A stretch of DNA of 51,574 bases from Myxococcota bacterium (GTDB lineage Bacteria; Myxococcota_A; Polyangia; Polyangiales; Houyiibacteriaceae). The stretch's first letter is position 1. Each line of letters begins with the position of its first letter. Positions 8,675 through 16,949 of this stretch are shown in pieces. The notes below the pieces were generated by a model. It was not told where the DNA came from and did no database searches. It saw only the letters and a list, made by a program, of their open reading frames with translations. The position numbers were made by a program, and so were the translations under genes. The stretch spans positions 1 through 51,574 of the forward strand of contig JANQQS010000097.1 of NCBI GenBank assembly GCA_028284955.1, given 5' to 3'.

Positions 8675-10396
8675 GTGCCCTACCAATTTCGCATCAACCA
8701 ACTTCGTTTCAACGACGGTTCGTCAATAGAGCCGAGTCATCTGACCGTCCTCATCGGTCCCAACAACGTTGGCAAGAGTTGTATCCTTAAGGAGATTGCA
8801 GCTCGGATGACGGGTTCGCTAGCTCCGCCCATCCTGGTCAAGGACATGCAAGTGGAGCTGCCAAAGCAGCTCGGAGATCTCACGGATACACCGCACACGT
8901 TCTCCCTCGAGCCTGCTGAACAGAACTATGTCCGGCATGATTTCTCCCCCGACTTGTGTAGTAGCCAAAAAAAGCTGTTTAAGGGTCCATTCCCTGCGGG
9001 TTTTGACTACCTATTCAACACAACCCCTGAATCGAAAGAAAAAGACTTCTTTCGATGGTTTGGCGCTAGTTTGGTCGCTCACCTTACAACCGAGAGGAGA
9101 CTCCAGCTGTCGAAACGTTGCGCTACAAACAACGAGTACGCGCAATCGCTGCTGGAGCTACTGGTGTTCGACGAAACGTCTCGAGAGTCCGTCGAGGACA
9201 CGTTTCGAGAGGTGTTTAGGGAAGAAATTGTCCTGGACTACAGTGGATTGTCTCACGTGGCATTTCGCGTTCTGCCCGAAAAGCGAGAGCTTCCCAAGCA
9301 TCCGGGCGATTTGAAAGAAGCATTAAACGGTGTGCCTTTTTTGGATGACCAAGGCGATGGCATGCGCTCCTACGTTGGAATTACGGCCGCCATAGAAGCC
9401 GTACGTCGCCCCTTAGTCCTCATCGATGAACCAGAGACGTTTCTTCATCCTCCTCAATCACGCGCGATCGGACGACTTGTCGCGAACGCACAACTACAGA
9501 ATCGCCAAGTATTCATTGCAACGCACAGTGTCGACGTGCTTCGCGGAGTGCTCTCGGCCGAGAAATCGGTGAGCATCATCCGGGTCACTCGGAAAGGAAC
9601 TACGAATCGCTTCGACGTCTTGGACAGCAAGTTTCTTTCTGAGGTTGCGGCCGATCCGCTAAAGAGTTCCGCCCGTGTTCTGAATGGACTGTTTCACCGA
9701 AGCGTCGCGGTGGTCGAGGGCGAGAGCGACGAACGACTTCTTGCCGCGATAGCTTCCCAAGTGGGAGGCGATCGGATCCATTTCGTAAGCGCAGGGGGCA
9801 AGCAGGCCACAAATGGCATCATTCAAATGTACAAGCAGCTTCACGTGCGATGCGCGTCGGTTCTTGACTTCGACGTGCTGCGGGATGAGAGCGAGTTATC
9901 TGCATGTCTGAAGAGCCACGACATAACCGACATCGATGCCGCAACGAAAGTTCATCAGGAACTTAAAGCGGTAGCGTCCGGCCCATCAGAAGTCGAACAT
10001 CGTGCCAAACAGCTGAGGTCGAGGTTGTCGACGCTGCTTTCCAAAATGGATGCGCTGAATCCCTCAGAAGCACTGTCGGTGGTCCGCGCCGAGCGGTCGT
10101 GGATAAACAAAGTCACAGACCCCTGGAGTAATCTGAAACACCGCGGCTTGGGCGCTCTTGAAGGCGAGTTGCAAGATCGAGTGAAGCACCTCCTAGACGA
10201 GCTTCGCGCAACCGGAATATTCATCAACCCGAAAGGCGAGCTTGAATCGCTGCTCCCCGAGGAAGTCTCGCCTCTAGGTGACAAGCAGGAATGGGTACGA
10301 CGCGCGATTCCACTCGTGTATCGATTAAAGGCCAACCCTAACTCATTGCCATGGTCGTGGATTAGGCAGCTGGTTGAATACCTCGAGCGTCCATGA
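8675..10396 (+). CDS. OLD-family ATP-dependent nuclease (AAA + TOPRIM)
   Basis: The product is 573 aa starting at GTG. It has an N-terminal SMC/ABC-like ATPase with Walker A GPNNVGKS (residues 28-35), a signature-like QGDGMRSYVGI near residue 230, Walker B LVLIDEPE near 247-254 and a switch histidine in ATHSVDVL near 285. A C-terminal TOPRIM domain follows, with VVEGESDER near 346 and DFDVL near 395. The tail holds GIFINPKGELESLLPE, typical of OLD nucleases. OLD proteins cut or nick DNA in phage defence (P2 Old; GajA of Gabija). No UvrD-like GajB helicase is adjacent, so this is a stand-alone OLD rather than Gabija. The gene looks more AT-rich than its neighbours, in keeping with horizontal acquisition. 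Its function here is inferred. Confidence 0.85.
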   Translation: MPYQFRINQLRFNDGSSIEPSHLTVLIGPNNVGKSCILKEIAARMTGSLAPPILVKDMQVELPKQLGDLTDTPHTFSLEPAEQNYVRHDFSPDLCSSQKKLFKGPFPAGFDYLFNTTPESKEKDFFRWFGASLVAHLTTERRLQLSKRCATNNEYAQSLLELLVFDETSRESVEDTFREVFREEIVLDYSGLSHVAFRVLPEKRELPKHPGDLKEALNGVPFLDDQGDGMRSYVGITAAIEAVRRPLVLIDEPETFLHPPQSRAIGRLVANAQLQNRQVFIATHSVDVLRGVLSAEKSVSIIRVTRKGTTNRFDVLDSKFLSEVAADPLKSSARVLNGLFHRSVAVVEGESDERLLAAIASQVGGDRIHFVSAGGKQATNGIIQMYKQLHVRCASVLDFDVLRDESELSACLKSHDITDIDAATKVHQELKAVASGPSEVEHRAKQLRSRLSTLLSKMDALNPSEALSVVRAERSWINKVTDPWSNLKHRGLGALEGELQDRVKHLLDELRATGIFINPKGELESLLPEEVSPLGDKQEWVRRAIPLVYRLKANPNSLPWSWIRQLVEYLERP

Positions 10397-10443: not shown

Positions 10444-10461
10444 GCTGATCCGAGGATCAGC
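10444..10461. terminator. Perfect inverted repeat between convergent genes
   Basis: GCTGATCC-GA-GGATCAGC is an 8-bp perfect stem with a 2-base spacer. It lies between the convergent nuclease and methyltransferase genes and overlaps the methyltransferase stop. It may act as a bidirectional terminator, but no T tract follows on either side. Confidence 0.4.
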
Positions 10462-11320
10462 GACCCTCCACCCCCAATACCTCAGGCTCCGCATCGCGAA
10501 GACGATTCTCCATCACCCCGATCGCTTCGGGGTTGTCGTCTATCAGCACGAATCGCCGGCCGTGGCGGGCTGCGGCGTCGCCGGTGGTGCCGCTTCCTGC
10601 GAAGAAGTCGAGCACAGTGTCGCCCGGATCTGAGTGGACTTTGATGATTCTTTCGAGAATGGCGACGGGTTTTTGGGTGGGGTAGCCGGTTCTTTCGCGG
10701 CCATTGGTGGGCACGATGGTTTGCCACCAGACGTCGGTGGGGACTTTGCCGCGGGCGGCTTTTTCAGGGGTGACGAGGGAGGGCGCCATGTAGGGCACGC
10801 GATCGATGGCGTCGTAGTTGAAGCAGTAGTTCTCTGGGTCTCTGGCGTACCAGAGAATGTTGTCGTGCTTCGCCGGCCATCGACGCTTCGAGCGGCCGCC
10901 GAAATCGTATGACCAAATGATTTCGTTGAGGAAGCTCGCGCGACCGAAGATCGTGTCCATCAAGACTTTGCAGTAGTGAACCTCGCGCGGGTCGACGTGC
11001 AGGAAGAACGATCCGTCGGGAGTGAGGAGGTCGCGCGCGATGGCGATTCGCTCTTCGAGAAACTCCAGGTAGTCATCGTGCCGATCGTCGTAGGACCTAC
11101 GACCCACTTCGACGGTCGCGTATCGACGGCCTCCGAAGCCATGGCGATCGCCCTGTTCGTCGTCTCGCACGGTTCGGATGGACCGAAGTTCCCGCCGCTG
11201 CCCGGTGTTGAATGGAGGGTCGATGTAGATCAGCCGAAAGCCCGCGGCGACCTGGTCGCGCAACCACGCGAGGTTTTCTGCGAGTACTATCTGCGAGCGC
11301 ATATGCTGCAGCCGTTCCAT
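10457..11320 (-). CDS. Orphan beta-class DNA methyltransferase (N6-A or N4-C)
   Basis: The product is 287 aa. The catalytic motif IV comes first, IDPPFNTGQ at residues 33-41, and the SAM-binding motif I comes last, LDFFAGSGTTGDAA at 237-250. This is the beta-class order of amino-methyltransferases such as CcrM or YhdJ. A central region (about 140-190) would be the target recognition part. No restriction endonuclease is seen nearby, so it is either an orphan epigenetic enzyme or the protective half of an unknown system with the convergent OLD nuclease. The ATG at 11320 lies inside the coding frame of a truncated ParE-like toxin. A second ATG at 11302 is possible. Confidence 0.85.
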   Translation of the reverse strand: MERLQHMRSQIVLAENLAWLRDQVAAGFRLIYIDPPFNTGQRRELRSIRTVRDDEQGDRHGFGGRRYATVEVGRRSYDDRHDDYLEFLEERIAIARDLLTPDGSFFLHVDPREVHYCKVLMDTIFGRASFLNEIIWSYDFGGRSKRRWPAKHDNILWYARDPENYCFNYDAIDRVPYMAPSLVTPEKAARGKVPTDVWWQTIVPTNGRERTGYPTQKPVAILERIIKVHSDPGDTVLDFFAGSGTTGDAAARHGRRFVLIDDNPEAIGVMENRLRDAEPEVLGVEGR

Positions 11321-11769: not shown

Positions 11770-14700
11770 TTACCGCGGCGCGGCGCCGAGGTCGATGAGG
11801 GTGCGTTCGACTTCGGAGCGATCGATGGCGTTGGCGGGGGCGAGCTCGAGGAATCGCTGGTAGTGCTCGATGGCGGAAGCCTTTTCGCTTCCTAGACGAT
11901 GGGCGTCGCCTTGGAGGCGATGGGCGTCGACGAGCCAGCCGGGGGGTGTTTTTTCAGCGTCGCCGAGCACGGTACTGCGGGCCAGTGCTTTGGTGGCTTC
12001 GGCGCGCTTGCCCATTTCGAGACGCAGGCGACCGAGCCGGTACCACCACTGTCCTTGCCGCGGGTTGTGTTCTACCGCGCGTTCGTACGCGCGAATGGCT
12101 TCTGGTCGACGGCCAAGTTGATCGTAGGCTTCGCCCATCGCGGCATTGACTTCGTGCCGACCGGGGTTGAGCGAAAGCGCCTTTTCGAAATCGCGCAGGG
12201 CGTCTTTCACGGCGCCCGTACGCACGTAGATTCGACCGCGCACCCAATACGCATCAGCCAGCGTGTTGTCGAGTTCGAGCGCGAGTTTCACTTCTTCGAT
12301 CGCGCGCCCGAGGTTGTTCGAATCGAGGTTCGCCCAGCCGGAATAGAGATGAAACTGGGCTCCTTGGGGGTCGAGTTGAACCGCGCGATCGAACAGCCGC
12401 ATCGCGGTCGACAGATTGCCGCGAGCGAACGCGACCCGGCCCATAAAATGCTCTACCTCGGCGGAGTTCGGCCGCGATTTGCGTACTTCCTGAAGCGAAC
12501 GTTCGGCATCGTCGATCTGTCCGCCGGCGACCTGCGCCGCCGCCAATCGAAGCAAGAGATTCGGATCATCGGGGCGTTGTTTGAGCGCGCGCTGGTAGCT
12601 TTCGACGGCTTTGGCGGGGTTGCCTTGTGCCTCGTAAATGCGGCCGCGTTCGAGCGCGAGACCAGGGTAGGACGAGTCTTGTTCGGCGAGTTTAGCAAAC
12701 GCCTGTTCCGCATCGCTGAGCTTATCGAGTCGACGCAAGGTCACGCCCAAACTGAAGTACGCGGCGGTGTTTTTGGGGTCGAGCTCGGTCGCCGAACGCA
12801 GCTCGCGCAGCGCGACATCGAGCCGCCCGCGACGCAGCTCGGCCTCGCCCAGCATGCGATGCACGCGCGCATCGACCTCGACATGCTGCCGGGCCTGGGC
12901 CAGCACCGCTCGTGCATCGGCAGCGCGCCCCGCATCGAAATGAAGCTCGGCCAGCGCGTGGTAGCCTTCAAACGCCTTCGGATCGAGTTCGATACTGGCT
13001 CGATAGTGGTCAACGGCTCCGGTCGGATTCTTCAGTGCCTCGGAAACTTTTCCGAGCCACAACTTAGCCGCCGCGTGCTTCGGGTTGGCCTGCACTAGCC
13101 CACTCAGAAGATTTTGTGCTTCTTGGACTCGACCAAGTTTCAACATCGCTTGTGCCGCGCCGAGCTTTGCGGCGATTTCTACGTCGGCATCGCCGGTTTC
13201 GGCGCTTGGCGCTGCGCCCGCACCAGCCGAGTTCTTGTCTGAGCTGAGCGCTTGAACCGCGGCGTCAAAGCGCGTGAGCGCGTCTAGGTATTGATGGTCC
13301 ACCAGCAGCACGTGGCCTACGCCGACGAGCGCATCGAGCGCGAACGGATCCGCCTCGATCGCGCTCTCGAACATCGCGCGAGCCAACCCTCTTCGACCAT
13401 CGTCGTCATACATCTGCCCCAGCAGCGTGAAGGCCTGCGCCCGCTCCGACTTCGAACCCCGAAGCGTTTTGTCTCCCACCGGAGCCGCGCCAGCCGCCTC
13501 CCGTGCCAAGCGAATCGCTTCATCGCGATTTCCTTCCTGGCGCGCGACTCGAGCCTGCGTGACCCGCGCCCCAACGTGCAGCGAGCTCTCGCGCAGCGTT
13601 CGCTCGGCAATCGACGCCTGCCCGGAGAGACCCTCTTCGCGTCCCACCACCCGAGCCAACCCCCAGAGCGCCTGGGCACTGCTCTTCGAAGCTTTTCGAA
13701 AAGCCTCCTCCGCTTTCTTGAGTTCGCCCTGCGCGAGGTAGATTTCGCCCGCGACCAGTGGAAGGTAGGGATCACCAGCAGACTCGGAGCGTGCCTTCGC
13801 AAGATGGCCGATGGCCGTTCCAAACTCTGAGCGACGAGCCGAGTCAGCCGCGAGCGCCAGCGAGATTCCCGGCGCATCCAAACTGCGCTCGGTGAGCCGG
13901 GAAAGAATACCGCTGGCCCGCGCCGCGCTTGCCGGATGAGCTCCGTACCGCAGTTGGAACAACGCTTCGTGCATGAGGCTGCGCGCGAGCAATCGTCGGT
14001 TCAGACCGGCCGTTCGACGAGCCTGAGCCAGTGCAGAAAGCGCGGACCGCGCGTCCGAGTAGGTGTCGCTCTTGGCGAGGTTCTCGGCTTTGTCGATCAC
14101 CGATCGAACGGTCGCTTCGTCACCCGCCGACGGGAGAAACCGCTCCAGAACGTACACGCCGAAGATGCCGTAGGGAGTAAACTTCAGCGCGCCACCAACG
14201 AGCACCAACACCCCCATCACCACGCCGACTGCCAAGAGCGCCTTTCCGCGCTTTTTCGGCGCCGCCACGGGGGACGGGCGCGATCGCCGCTGTTCCGCTT
14301 CAAGCTCGGGCGCAAACGGCGCCGTGGACGAGGATACGCCCGCCGAGGCGTCCATCGCCCCTCCCGGCCCAGGAAGAGCGCCATCCGAAAGGGCACCATC
14401 GTCTTCCGGAAAATCCGCAAACTCGAGTTCGTCTCCGATCCCCTCTTCACCCATACCGGGCGCGCCCAAGCCGGCATCCGCTGTACCCCCGAACGGGTCG
14501 CCTCCCAGGTCGACTTCGCCGTACCCCACCCCGCCGGAATCAAGCTCGGCAGTGGGCTCACGCATGCGCGGCTCCGGCAACGCGAGGTCGTCGTCGAGTG
14601 CGGGAAGACCGTCGCTGAGTGGATCGACTGCACCCGGAGGGTTCAAGCCTCCCAAAGGATCTGACTCACCCGCCGGATTCGTTCGCGCGCCGCCGAGCAT

Positions 14701-15927
14701 CTCCGGCGCAGGCAAATCAAAGCCATCCCGGCCGACGGGAAGATCGGCGCCCGCGCTGGGCATCGGCAAATCTGTGCCCGTGCTCGGCATGGGAAGATCC
14801 AGCCCCTGGCTCGCCACCGGCAAATCTGTGCCCGCGCTCGGCATGGGAAGGTCCAGGCTTTGGCTCGCCATCGGCAAATCCGCGCCGCTGCTCGGCATGG
14901 GAAGATCCAGCCCCTGGCTTGGCATCGGCAAGTCTGCCCCGCTGCTCGGCATGGGAAGGTCTAGAGATTCGCCAAACGGGTCCGCGGCCACGGCGGGCGC
15001 AGGTTTGGGCATCGGTAAATCGAGGCCGCTATCAAAGCTTGCTCCACCCTTGCGGCCAGACCGGCGGCTTCCCGATGGACCACCTGGTGAAGCTTGCGCC
15101 GACGAGGCACCCGACAACGCATGACTGGGCATCGGCAAATCGAGTTCGCCAAAACCTGCTGAACCTGACGGGGCTGGCAAATCGACGAGCCCCCCCTTTC
15201 GCGAAGGGGCGGGAAGATCGGCAAGATCGCCGCGCGGACCCGCCGGGGCGGGAAGATCGGCAAGGCCAGCATCCGAAACGGCCGCATCGGACCGTCCGGC
15301 AGGAGACGACACCGGACCACCAAGCACCGCCGGAAGATCGACCTCGTCCAGCGGGTCGGGCGCGGGGACCTCCGGGGCGATGGGGGCTCGGGGTTTCGCG
15401 GCCGGGGGCTTTGGCGGCGCCGGCGGAGCGACTTTTGGACCCGCGTTCGGAGGAACGGGTGGCGCGATCCGTCGCGGAGCAGGAAGGTCGACGCCGCTCG
15501 ACCCCCCTGATTTGGTGCTCGGCGCCGGTAAATCCGCTAGGTCCGTGCCAAACTTTGATCGAGCCTTTGAGGACCCGGTTTTTGGCGGAGGGACGAGTCC
15601 CTTCGGAGGCGGTGGCTTCCCCGGTTTGTTGGCTCCCGACTTGTTGACCCCTGGCCTGGTTACCCCTGACCTGGCTACGGAGCTAGGCGCGGGAAGATCG
15701 CTCAAGTCTCCGAAACCCGGACCGGAAGCCTTACCTGAGACAGCCTCGGTCGGGACCGGAGGCGCAATAGGCTTCTTTTTCTCCGACGAAGACTCTTGAA
15801 CGCCATCCGGGCCCACTCGAAATGAGGCACTGCATTTCGGACACCGCATTTTGAGACCACCAGCGGGAAGCCTCCGCTCGTCGAAATCGTACGGCGCCGC
15901 GCACGCGGGGCACTCAACGTGAATCAT
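11770..15927 (-). CDS. Zinc-ribbon / DLPMPS-repeat / TM / TPR envelope protein
   Basis: The product is 1385 aa in four parts. An N-terminal MJ0042-type zinc ribbon has Cys6, Cys9, Cys29 and Cys32. A disordered Pro/Ala/Gly-rich region of about 500 residues contains roughly 19 copies of a DLPxP motif (DLPAPS, DLPMPS). One transmembrane helix lies near residues 555-580 (ALLAVGVVMGVLVLVGGAL). A long array of tetratricopeptide repeats runs from about 620 to the end. The zinc ribbon would be cytoplasmic and the TPRs periplasmic. The architecture recalls envelope-spanning regulators such as myxobacterial GltJ/AgmX, which share the zinc ribbon, but no GYF or TonB part is seen. Function is unknown; a scaffold linking a cytoplasmic partner to a periplasmic complex is inference. 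The gene is divergent from zapA. Confidence 0.75.
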   Translation of the reverse strand: MIHVECPACAAPYDFDERRLPAGGLKMRCPKCSASFRVGPDGVQESSSEKKKPIAPPVPTEAVSGKASGPGFGDLSDLPAPSSVARSGVTRPGVNKSGANKPGKPPPPKGLVPPPKTGSSKARSKFGTDLADLPAPSTKSGGSSGVDLPAPRRIAPPVPPNAGPKVAPPAPPKPPAAKPRAPIAPEVPAPDPLDEVDLPAVLGGPVSSPAGRSDAAVSDAGLADLPAPAGPRGDLADLPAPSRKGGLVDLPAPSGSAGFGELDLPMPSHALSGASSAQASPGGPSGSRRSGRKGGASFDSGLDLPMPKPAPAVAADPFGESLDLPMPSSGADLPMPSQGLDLPMPSSGADLPMASQSLDLPMPSAGTDLPVASQGLDLPMPSTGTDLPMPSAGADLPVGRDGFDLPAPEMLGGARTNPAGESDPLGGLNPPGAVDPLSDGLPALDDDLALPEPRMREPTAELDSGGVGYGEVDLGGDPFGGTADAGLGAPGMGEEGIGDELEFADFPEDDGALSDGALPGPGGAMDASAGVSSSTAPFAPELEAEQRRSRPSPVAAPKKRGKALLAVGVVMGVLVLVGGALKFTPYGIFGVYVLERFLPSAGDEATVRSVIDKAENLAKSDTYSDARSALSALAQARRTAGLNRRLLARSLMHEALFQLRYGAHPASAARASGILSRLTERSLDAPGISLALAADSARRSEFGTAIGHLAKARSESAGDPYLPLVAGEIYLAQGELKKAEEAFRKASKSSAQALWGLARVVGREEGLSGQASIAERTLRESSLHVGARVTQARVARQEGNRDEAIRLAREAAGAAPVGDKTLRGSKSERAQAFTLLGQMYDDDGRRGLARAMFESAIEADPFALDALVGVGHVLLVDHQYLDALTRFDAAVQALSSDKNSAGAGAAPSAETGDADVEIAAKLGAAQAMLKLGRVQEAQNLLSGLVQANPKHAAAKLWLGKVSEALKNPTGAVDHYRASIELDPKAFEGYHALAELHFDAGRAADARAVLAQARQHVEVDARVHRMLGEAELRRGRLDVALRELRSATELDPKNTAAYFSLGVTLRRLDKLSDAEQAFAKLAEQDSSYPGLALERGRIYEAQGNPAKAVESYQRALKQRPDDPNLLLRLAAAQVAGGQIDDAERSLQEVRKSRPNSAEVEHFMGRVAFARGNLSTAMRLFDRAVQLDPQGAQFHLYSGWANLDSNNLGRAIEEVKLALELDNTLADAYWVRGRIYVRTGAVKDALRDFEKALSLNPGRHEVNAAMGEAYDQLGRRPEAIRAYERAVEHNPRQGQWWYRLGRLRLEMGKRAEATKALARSTVLGDAEKTPPGWLVDAHRLQGDAHRLGSEKASAIEHYQRFLELAPANAIDRSEVERTLIDLGAAPR
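14740..14965. repeat. 27-bp tandem repeat coding for DLPMPS units
   Basis: On the minus strand, nine-residue units of the form xGxDLPMPS (27 bp) alternate in two flavours (SGAD/QGLD), giving a 54-bp higher-order period. The DNA units are nearly identical here while further copies on either side are degenerate, which points to recent expansion. Confidence 0.8.
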
Positions 15928-15996
15928 CGACCGCAGAATATCATGTTCGCGGTCGATCTTGACGCCCGAACACTGGCGACAGTACTTTCAGCGGTA
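15928..15996. promoter_or_regulatory. Divergent promoter region of TPR protein gene and zapA
   Basis: This 69-bp spacer is the only non-coding DNA between the two divergent genes and must carry both promoters. No box of clear quality was recognised. Confidence 0.35.
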
Positions 15997-16338
15997 GTGA
16001 AACGAACGGTAACAGTGGAGATCGCGGGTGCGAGGTATCGGATGACATCCGACACCGACGACAAGCACATTGCGCGACTGGCGGAGATGATCAACGCGCG
16101 CGTGGCCGAGCTGGGCCAAAAAGCGGCACGGACAGCGTCTCCTTCGCAGCTTTTGGTCGCGGTGGCCTTAGGCCTCGCCGAGGACCTCGACGTCGCTCAG
16201 CAGAGTCGCCGCCACTTCTCAGAAAAAGTTCGGACCACCGTCCGAGCCGCGATCGCGCGCATCGACGAGCGACTCGAACACCAAGCAAAGGCCTCAGCGC
16301 CGGAAGAATCCAGCCTTCACGAGGACAGCCGTTCGTGA
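15997..16338 (+). CDS. zapA: Cell division protein ZapA
   Basis: The product is 113 aa from a GTG start. The pattern VKRTVTVEIAGARYRM, then SDTDDKHIARLAEMINARV and a central helix SPSQLLVAVALGLAEDL, is typical of ZapA, which binds FtsZ and bundles its filaments at the division ring. A coiled-coil C-terminus follows. Upstream starts at 15919 or 15943 would overlap the divergent gene or add a tail foreign to the family, so 15997 is preferred although no ribosome site stands out. Its stop overlaps the next start (GTGA), keeping the zapA-ygfA neighbourhood common in proteobacteria. Confidence 0.8.
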   Translation: MKRTVTVEIAGARYRMTSDTDDKHIARLAEMINARVAELGQKAARTASPSQLLVAVALGLAEDLDVAQQSRRHFSEKVRTTVRAAIARIDERLEHQAKASAPEESSLHEDSRS

Positions 16339-16949
16339 ACCCCGGCGCCGCCGGTCCAACGTCCGAAGAGGCCATCCGTTCGTTCGCCAAACGCGAGCTA
16401 CGGCGCCGTATGATCGCGATTCGCAAAGCCACGCCCAAAGATGCTCGCGCGCGTCGCTCGCAGGACATGTCGCGACGGGTTCAGGAGCTTCCGGAGTTTT
16501 CCCGCGCGACATGCATCGCAGGATTTTTCAGCGTGCGCAGTGAAATCGATCCGCATTCTATACTCGTCGCAGCATGGGAACGGGGCAACACCGTTTGCTT
16601 GCCGCGGGTCGATATCGAACGGAACGAAGTGGTTTTTCACGCCTGCGACCAAACCACCGAGCTTGTGCAGGGCGCATTTGGGATTTCCGAACCGCCTCCA
16701 TCTCGCCCCGAAATCCCTCGCCAGGAGATCGATTTCGTGCTGGTGCCTGCGCTCGCGGTCGATCCGCGCGGCCATCGAGTCGGCTACGGCAAAGGTTTTT
16801 ACGACCGCCTGCTCGAGACACTCACCGGCGCTTTTTCGTGCGCGGTCGCGTTTGAGTTTCAACTGATCTCGGAGGCACCCAACACCAGCCTCGACGTTGC
16901 CGTTCATTGCGTCGTCACGGACAAGCGATCCATTCGCGTCAGCTCATGA
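16335..16949 (+). CDS. ygfA: 5-formyltetrahydrofolate cyclo-ligase
   Basis: The product is 204 aa. It carries the family's ATP/substrate motif VGYGKGFYDRLL near residues 153-164, the N-terminal basic helix KRELRRRMIAIRK, and the FVLVPALAVDPRGHRVGYG strand-turn. It converts 5-formyl-THF to 5,10-methenyl-THF with ATP and so recovers folate. The GTG start at 16335 overlaps the zapA stop by four bases, so 6S RNA, which lies between zapA and ygfA in gammaproteobacteria, is not present here. Length fits the family. Confidence 0.87.
   Translation: MNPGAAGPTSEEAIRSFAKRELRRRMIAIRKATPKDARARRSQDMSRRVQELPEFSRATCIAGFFSVRSEIDPHSILVAAWERGNTVCLPRVDIERNEVVFHACDQTTELVQGAFGISEPPPSRPEIPRQEIDFVLVPALAVDPRGHRVGYGKGFYDRLLETLTGAFSCAVAFEFQLISEAPNTSLDVAVHCVVTDKRSIRVSS

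Follow-up and report, generated by a model that had tools for sequence, protein, structure and literature searches.

The gene at 11770..15927 on the minus strand of the window, by which we mean the whole stretch of 51,574 nucleotides analysed here (Myxococcota bacterium, GCA_028284955.1, contig JANQQS010000097.1), raises the question of what a short peptide motif, repeated many times in the linker of a membrane protein, is there for. The open reading frame list gives exactly these bounds, with an ATG start codon and a clean frame of 1385 amino acids. Judged from the frame, its domains and its orthologs, the product is composed of a zinc ribbon, a linker with DLPxP motifs predicted to be disordered, one transmembrane helix and a TPR solenoid. 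The MJ0042-type zinc ribbon (15817..15918, minus strand; aa 4-37) is matched by PF13717 (E 2.5e-11, 43.7 bits against a cut-off of 30.3) and by a PDB entry discussed below, and its cysteines 6, 9, 29 and 32 are invariant in an alignment of 22 orthologs. The linker (14248..15816, minus strand; aa 38-560, about 520 residues) is rich in P, A, G and D. It is probably disordered, judging from this composition and from the array of a homolog (L255, with zinc ribbon, GYF_2 and array), for which AlphaFold gave a pLDDT of 43-62 in the array and mostly above 90 in the heads. On the N-terminal side of the membrane helix the alignment delimits a second short conserved stretch (14392..14532, minus strand, bounds approximate), whose pattern is GG-x-(F/Y)-G-E-x-D-L-G ... 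(D/E)-x-E-F-x-x-(I/L/F)-P; a strict version of it found both halves in 21 of 75 linkers. In many orthologs the stretch reads GG-x-F-G-E-x-D-L-G, then D-x-E-F-x-x-I-P-x-E.

The single transmembrane helix (14185..14241, minus strand; about aa 563-581) was located by hydrophobicity and is a helix in the AlphaFold model. Seven K/R are found in the 20 residues preceding it and two after it, and K/R are commoner on the N-terminal side in every ortholog examined; this charge bias most likely places the linker in the cytoplasm and the TPR part in the periplasm. The solenoid, predicted to be periplasmic (11791..14118, minus strand; about aa 604-1379), is matched by many TPR families of Pfam over aa 900-1343. 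The AlphaFold model of aa 555-1385, built with 29 orthologs, has a mean pLDDT of 90.6 and about 44 helices forming about 21 hairpins. Foldseek retrieved with this model common TPR solenoids alone, such as OGT and Ctr9, and indicated no function from the fold. The zinc ribbon, the one membrane helix and the large TPR array, which a sequence-only reading had already named, are confirmed by PF13717, by the hydrophobic segment, and by Pfam together with AlphaFold, respectively.

The motif array itself (14704..15699, minus strand; aa 77-408) was recognised in the sequence and assessed by shuffling. It carries nineteen DLP motifs at aa 77-404, fifteen being DLPxP and four being the variants DLPAV, DLPMA, DLPVA and DLPVG, so that the figure of about 19 given for DLPxP by the sequence-only reading applies to DLP and not to the strict motif. 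In 5000 shuffles of the linker the mean number of DLP was 0.78 (maximum 5) and that of DLPxP 0.13 (maximum 3). Within the array lies a dense stretch in fixed register (14692..14961, minus strand), made of ten units of nine residues (aa 323-412), delimited by TRF and by its codons. The sequence-only reading saw here near-identical units of 27 bp and a recent expansion. The expansion by blocks stands; the unit is rather one of 54 bp with two motifs, since the match reported by TRF rises from 62% at period 27 to 82% at 54 (88% at 108), and the units are spelled alternately ..CTT CCC ATG CCG.. and ..TTG CCG ATG CCx.., which indicates expansion by two-motif blocks of 54 bp.

The nineteen DLP copies are written in nine different DNA spellings. 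In the ten fixed-register units D, L and P are present ten times out of ten, with differing codons (GAC/GAT, CTT/TTG, CCC/CCG/CCT). The fixed-register units of the window, L037, L262, L255 and L263 all keep their D and P(3) codons free of first- or second-position change, and at most of these codons the third position varies. Since the D, L and P codons change only synonymously, selection appears to act on the peptide, which argues against free drift of a spacer, and the codon data support the view that the short motif is selected for its protein sequence. Calling copies by the motif favours those that match it, a bias which the fixed-register test alone largely avoids; slippage can homogenise tandem arrays and mimic conservation, and L065, with identical copies, and L204, whose register is not that of a true array, were uninformative for the test.

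A search with the region next to the membrane helix matched 41 of 235 Myxococcota genomes, and in a profile search almost every sampled genome of the order, as well as some other genomes, gave a full-length ortholog. Where the N terminus is complete, nearly all orthologs of the order carry both the zinc ribbon and a linker rich in LP; L202 is an ortholog in which the pattern used found no zinc ribbon. The family was defined in this analysis by a zinc ribbon or GYF_2 head, an LP/DLP array, a transmembrane helix and TPRs, and the window protein has all of these, with K/R on the N-terminal side of the helix and a long TPR array. For 56 of the 62 members, none of 500 shuffles reached the DLP count observed. 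The consensus across members is D-L-P-x-P-[K/R]: in the family logos D occupies position -1 in 46-86% of the motifs of all groups but f4 (27%), P occupies +3 in 32-79%, and K/R recur at +4 in five groups. The LP repeats are looser in f2 and f4; among those of the Polyangiaceae (f2), often no more than 0-5 copies of DLPxP are left. The possibility that the motif varies freely among relatives with no common core is thus at odds with most members, which keep the DLP core. What holds constant is this core and not the number, as strict DLPxP ranges from 0 to 23 copies per member and in part of the Polyangiaceae decays to LP repeats.

A DNA pattern of three motifs matched 64 of 377 genomes, with control patterns near zero. 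With the exception of simple repeats and of the proteins listed further on, the translated hits have head, array, transmembrane helix and TPRs and belong to several Myxococcota classes. The type of head varies (zinc ribbon, GYF_2 or both, with GYF_2 beside the array in cis in f19, f29 and f56), and the array stays. Comparison of C-terminal halves by hhalign gave scores of 124 for f9, 93 for f19 and 88 for f10 against 54 for a generic TM-TPR control, in favour of homology in these three families; the score of f29, 58, is close to the control and not separable from it. In f21 and f35, relatives of another class, the zinc ribbon is of a different kind and the array is missing; the remainder of the protein can do without it. 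The candidates G163 C168, G322, G345 C9 and G249, of which G345 (L277) was the only one translated, look like GC-rich simple repeats and were discarded as arrays, as was L275 (G191), which looks like a wrong-frame repeat. In a literature search for DLPAP, DLPMP and DLPTP, the papers listed contained unrelated uses only.

In the sixteen genomes searched for them, clear arrays occur almost only in this gene, with control patterns near zero, and the other carriers are few. An Hsp70 paralog of f11, a protein unrelated to the one discussed here, has a long disordered insert with DLPxP (four copies in L304, three in L309, seven in L310, one or two in L306-L308); none was found in the f11 paralog L305 or in about 20 other Hsp70s. 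L282 (f34) is an Hsp70 with DFPVPK repeats in a long disordered insert or tail. The presence of the motif in Hsp70 paralogs and other carriers makes a purely passive spacer less likely, these hints being few. Other layouts were also seen: L226 has a short DLP array, a GYF-like head and a C-terminal transmembrane helix without TPR, L281 has a zinc-ribbon-like head, DLPDPT repeats, a transmembrane helix and a PEGA-like tail, and L300 is a further protein with a short DLP array.

Among known systems the nearest is GltJ/AgmX of Myxococcus xanthus gliding, which shares with the window protein a cytoplasmic zinc-ribbon head, a disordered linker and one transmembrane helix. The best PDB match of the window zinc ribbon is the AgmX/GltJ zinc ribbon 7zok (E 2.7e-4), and the GYF_2 domains of homologs best match AgmX 7z3c. 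Unlike GltJ/AgmX, the window protein has a TPR solenoid in place of a TonB-like C-terminal tail and no GYF domain. GYF_2 is absent among the Pfam matches listed, with the DLP linker beginning at aa 38, and NF033761 (AgmX/PglI TonB-like C-terminal, cut-off 450 bits) is absent among the NCBIfam matches listed, the C terminus being TPR. Lacking both parts, the protein is not a GltJ. It may nonetheless work in a similar way, with a docking head in the cytoplasm connected to a part in the envelope; PMC12288465 names GltJ as an effector of MglA. Three other zinc-ribbon proteins are encoded in the source genome, a clear GYF_2 being present in two and a weak one in the third, and its GltJ-like proteins differ from the window protein in having no DLPxP array in the parts examined. 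L003 and L004, like some distant homologs, do have GYF_2. L003 (C187) and L004 (C76) of the source genome, with zinc ribbon, GYF_2 and transmembrane helix, score below the GltJ cut-off and may be related to the gliding machinery. In the Myxococcus xanthus check none of the 187 sampled genomes was GltJ-positive, and the control also matched nowhere.

Envelope TPR scaffolds (PrsT, PgaA, BcsC, LapB, GltE, Tgl) resemble the protein in their long TPR array, and their NCBIfam models match it partially: PrsT (TIGR02917) with 179.2 bits against a cut-off of 312.2, PilW 122 against 154, Tgl 89.4 against 225, GltE 53.7 against 225 and LapB 57.2 against 363. Among the NCBIfam matches listed, no equivalog of this kind exceeds its cut-off; the only model that does is SycD/LcrH (115.6 against 104.8), a chaperone model of 136 positions which covers aa 927-1017 and reflects TPR repeats only. 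PrsT, PgaA, BcsC, LapB, GltE and Tgl are not known to carry such a DLPxP arm. The arm itself is more like those of multivalent short-linear-motif scaffolds, known mainly from eukaryotes, whose proline-rich ligands have SH3, GYF or WW partners and whose disordered arm likewise repeats a short proline-based motif; the window protein differs from these in being bacterial and membrane-anchored, and D-L-P-x-P differs from the classical GYF ligand, PPG-hydrophobic.

We give a probability of about one half to the reading in which the array is a multivalent docking tether of a trans-envelope scaffold for a putative partner. The protein would be a single-pass inner-membrane scaffold whose cytoplasmic arm shows 15-19 copies of D-L-P-x-P-[K/R/S] on a disordered tether, and these would capture, with high avidity, a protein of the cytoplasm whose pocket fits them. 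The zinc ribbon at the tip of the arm would serve as a second docking head, while the membrane helix and the periplasmic solenoid would anchor the whole to some structure of the envelope. The TPRs would bind an envelope partner, the partner of the motif would act in trans, and the scaffold would couple a cytoplasmic system to something periplasmic. Much of this had been proposed from the letters alone; the proposal is borne out as far as a selected motif, a core kept in several classes, a cytoplasmic position by charge bias, a TM-TPR tether and recurrence in Hsp70 go. The motif is the same whichever head the protein has, zinc ribbon or GYF_2, which suggests that the head is not the partner, and no binding domain co-varying with the array was visible. 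A wider version is tentative and less likely than not: D-L-P-x-P-[K/R] would serve throughout the Myxococcota as a docking tag, carried by scaffold arrays and, in one lineage, by an Hsp70 paralog, and a putative adaptor domain would read it, so that cytoplasmic proteins gather at a shared membrane hub; if true, it would be a bacterial counterpart of proline-motif/adaptor networks. The protein belongs to a widespread Myxococcota membrane family whose unit is described by no Pfam, NCBIfam or PDB entry searched, and few such multivalent motif scaffolds are known from bacteria. The motif is conserved well enough for use as bait and, if it is a ligand, could expose its receptor and the cytoplasm-to-envelope system served.

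The linker could instead be an entropic spacer of proline-stiffened, LP-rich repeats which distances the zinc ribbon from the membrane, the repeats having spread by slippage or gene conversion and their exact motif being irrelevant. The range of copy numbers from 0 to more than 20, the great regularity of the repeats with their recent 54-bp blocks, the looser repeats of f2 and f4 and the array-less relatives in other families would all be expected of a spacer. The acidic residue at -1 and the basic one at +4, which recur in separate families, would not, and the same is true of the synonymous-only variation of in-register D and P codons, of the recurrence of the motif in the Hsp70 insert and of the absence of DLPxP from the linkers, in the parts examined, of the three other zinc-ribbon proteins of the source genome. 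We hold the spacer to be rather unlikely; docking is plausible and the better supported of the two. Somewhat less credit still goes to self-assembly, in which the motif would be bound by the protein's own head or by GltJ-like GYF_2 proteins of the same cell and membrane clusters or condensates would result. GYF domains bind proline-rich peptides, GYF_2 adjoins the array in cis in three families, the other zinc-ribbon proteins of the source genome could supply it in trans, and the heads match AgmX/GltJ structures; the same motif accompanies either type of head, though, and the L255 model, weak evidence from 10 sequences, shows no confident cis docking.

A further proposal, that the protein links cytoplasmic ZapA/FtsZ to the envelope and its array binds a divisome component, derives from the gene neighbourhood. 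Divergent from the gene lies zapA (15919..16338, plus strand; PF05164), whose true start is probably near 15994, followed by fau (16335..16949, plus strand), annotated as 5-formyltetrahydrofolate cyclo-ligase, and the same divergent zapA-fau(-uvrC) arrangement occurs in f1, f5, f51 and f53. This adjacency is weak evidence, since zapA-fau is a housekeeping pair, and the neighbours are others elsewhere: part of f2 (Polyangiaceae) has a PpiC-like gene and a giant TPR gene in the divergent position, in f9 and f29 its neighbour is serS, and in f19 the array gene is followed on the same strand by a TPR/weak-DnaJ gene and an Hsp70 gene (order read in L255, 2623-5903), members of this run recurring in six loci (L255, L256-L258, L271, L070). 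A role in cell division is accordingly a very doubtful prospect. No neighbour is common to all families, and synteny was set aside as a guide to function. The search for arrays and their neighbours in Myxococcota that had been suggested thus yielded arrays in several classes, but neighbours which change between families. Downstream of the gene in the window, an N6/N4 DNA methylase and, by eye, an ABC/OLD-like ATPase open reading frame (10457-11320 and 8675-10396) possibly form a defence-type neighbourhood.
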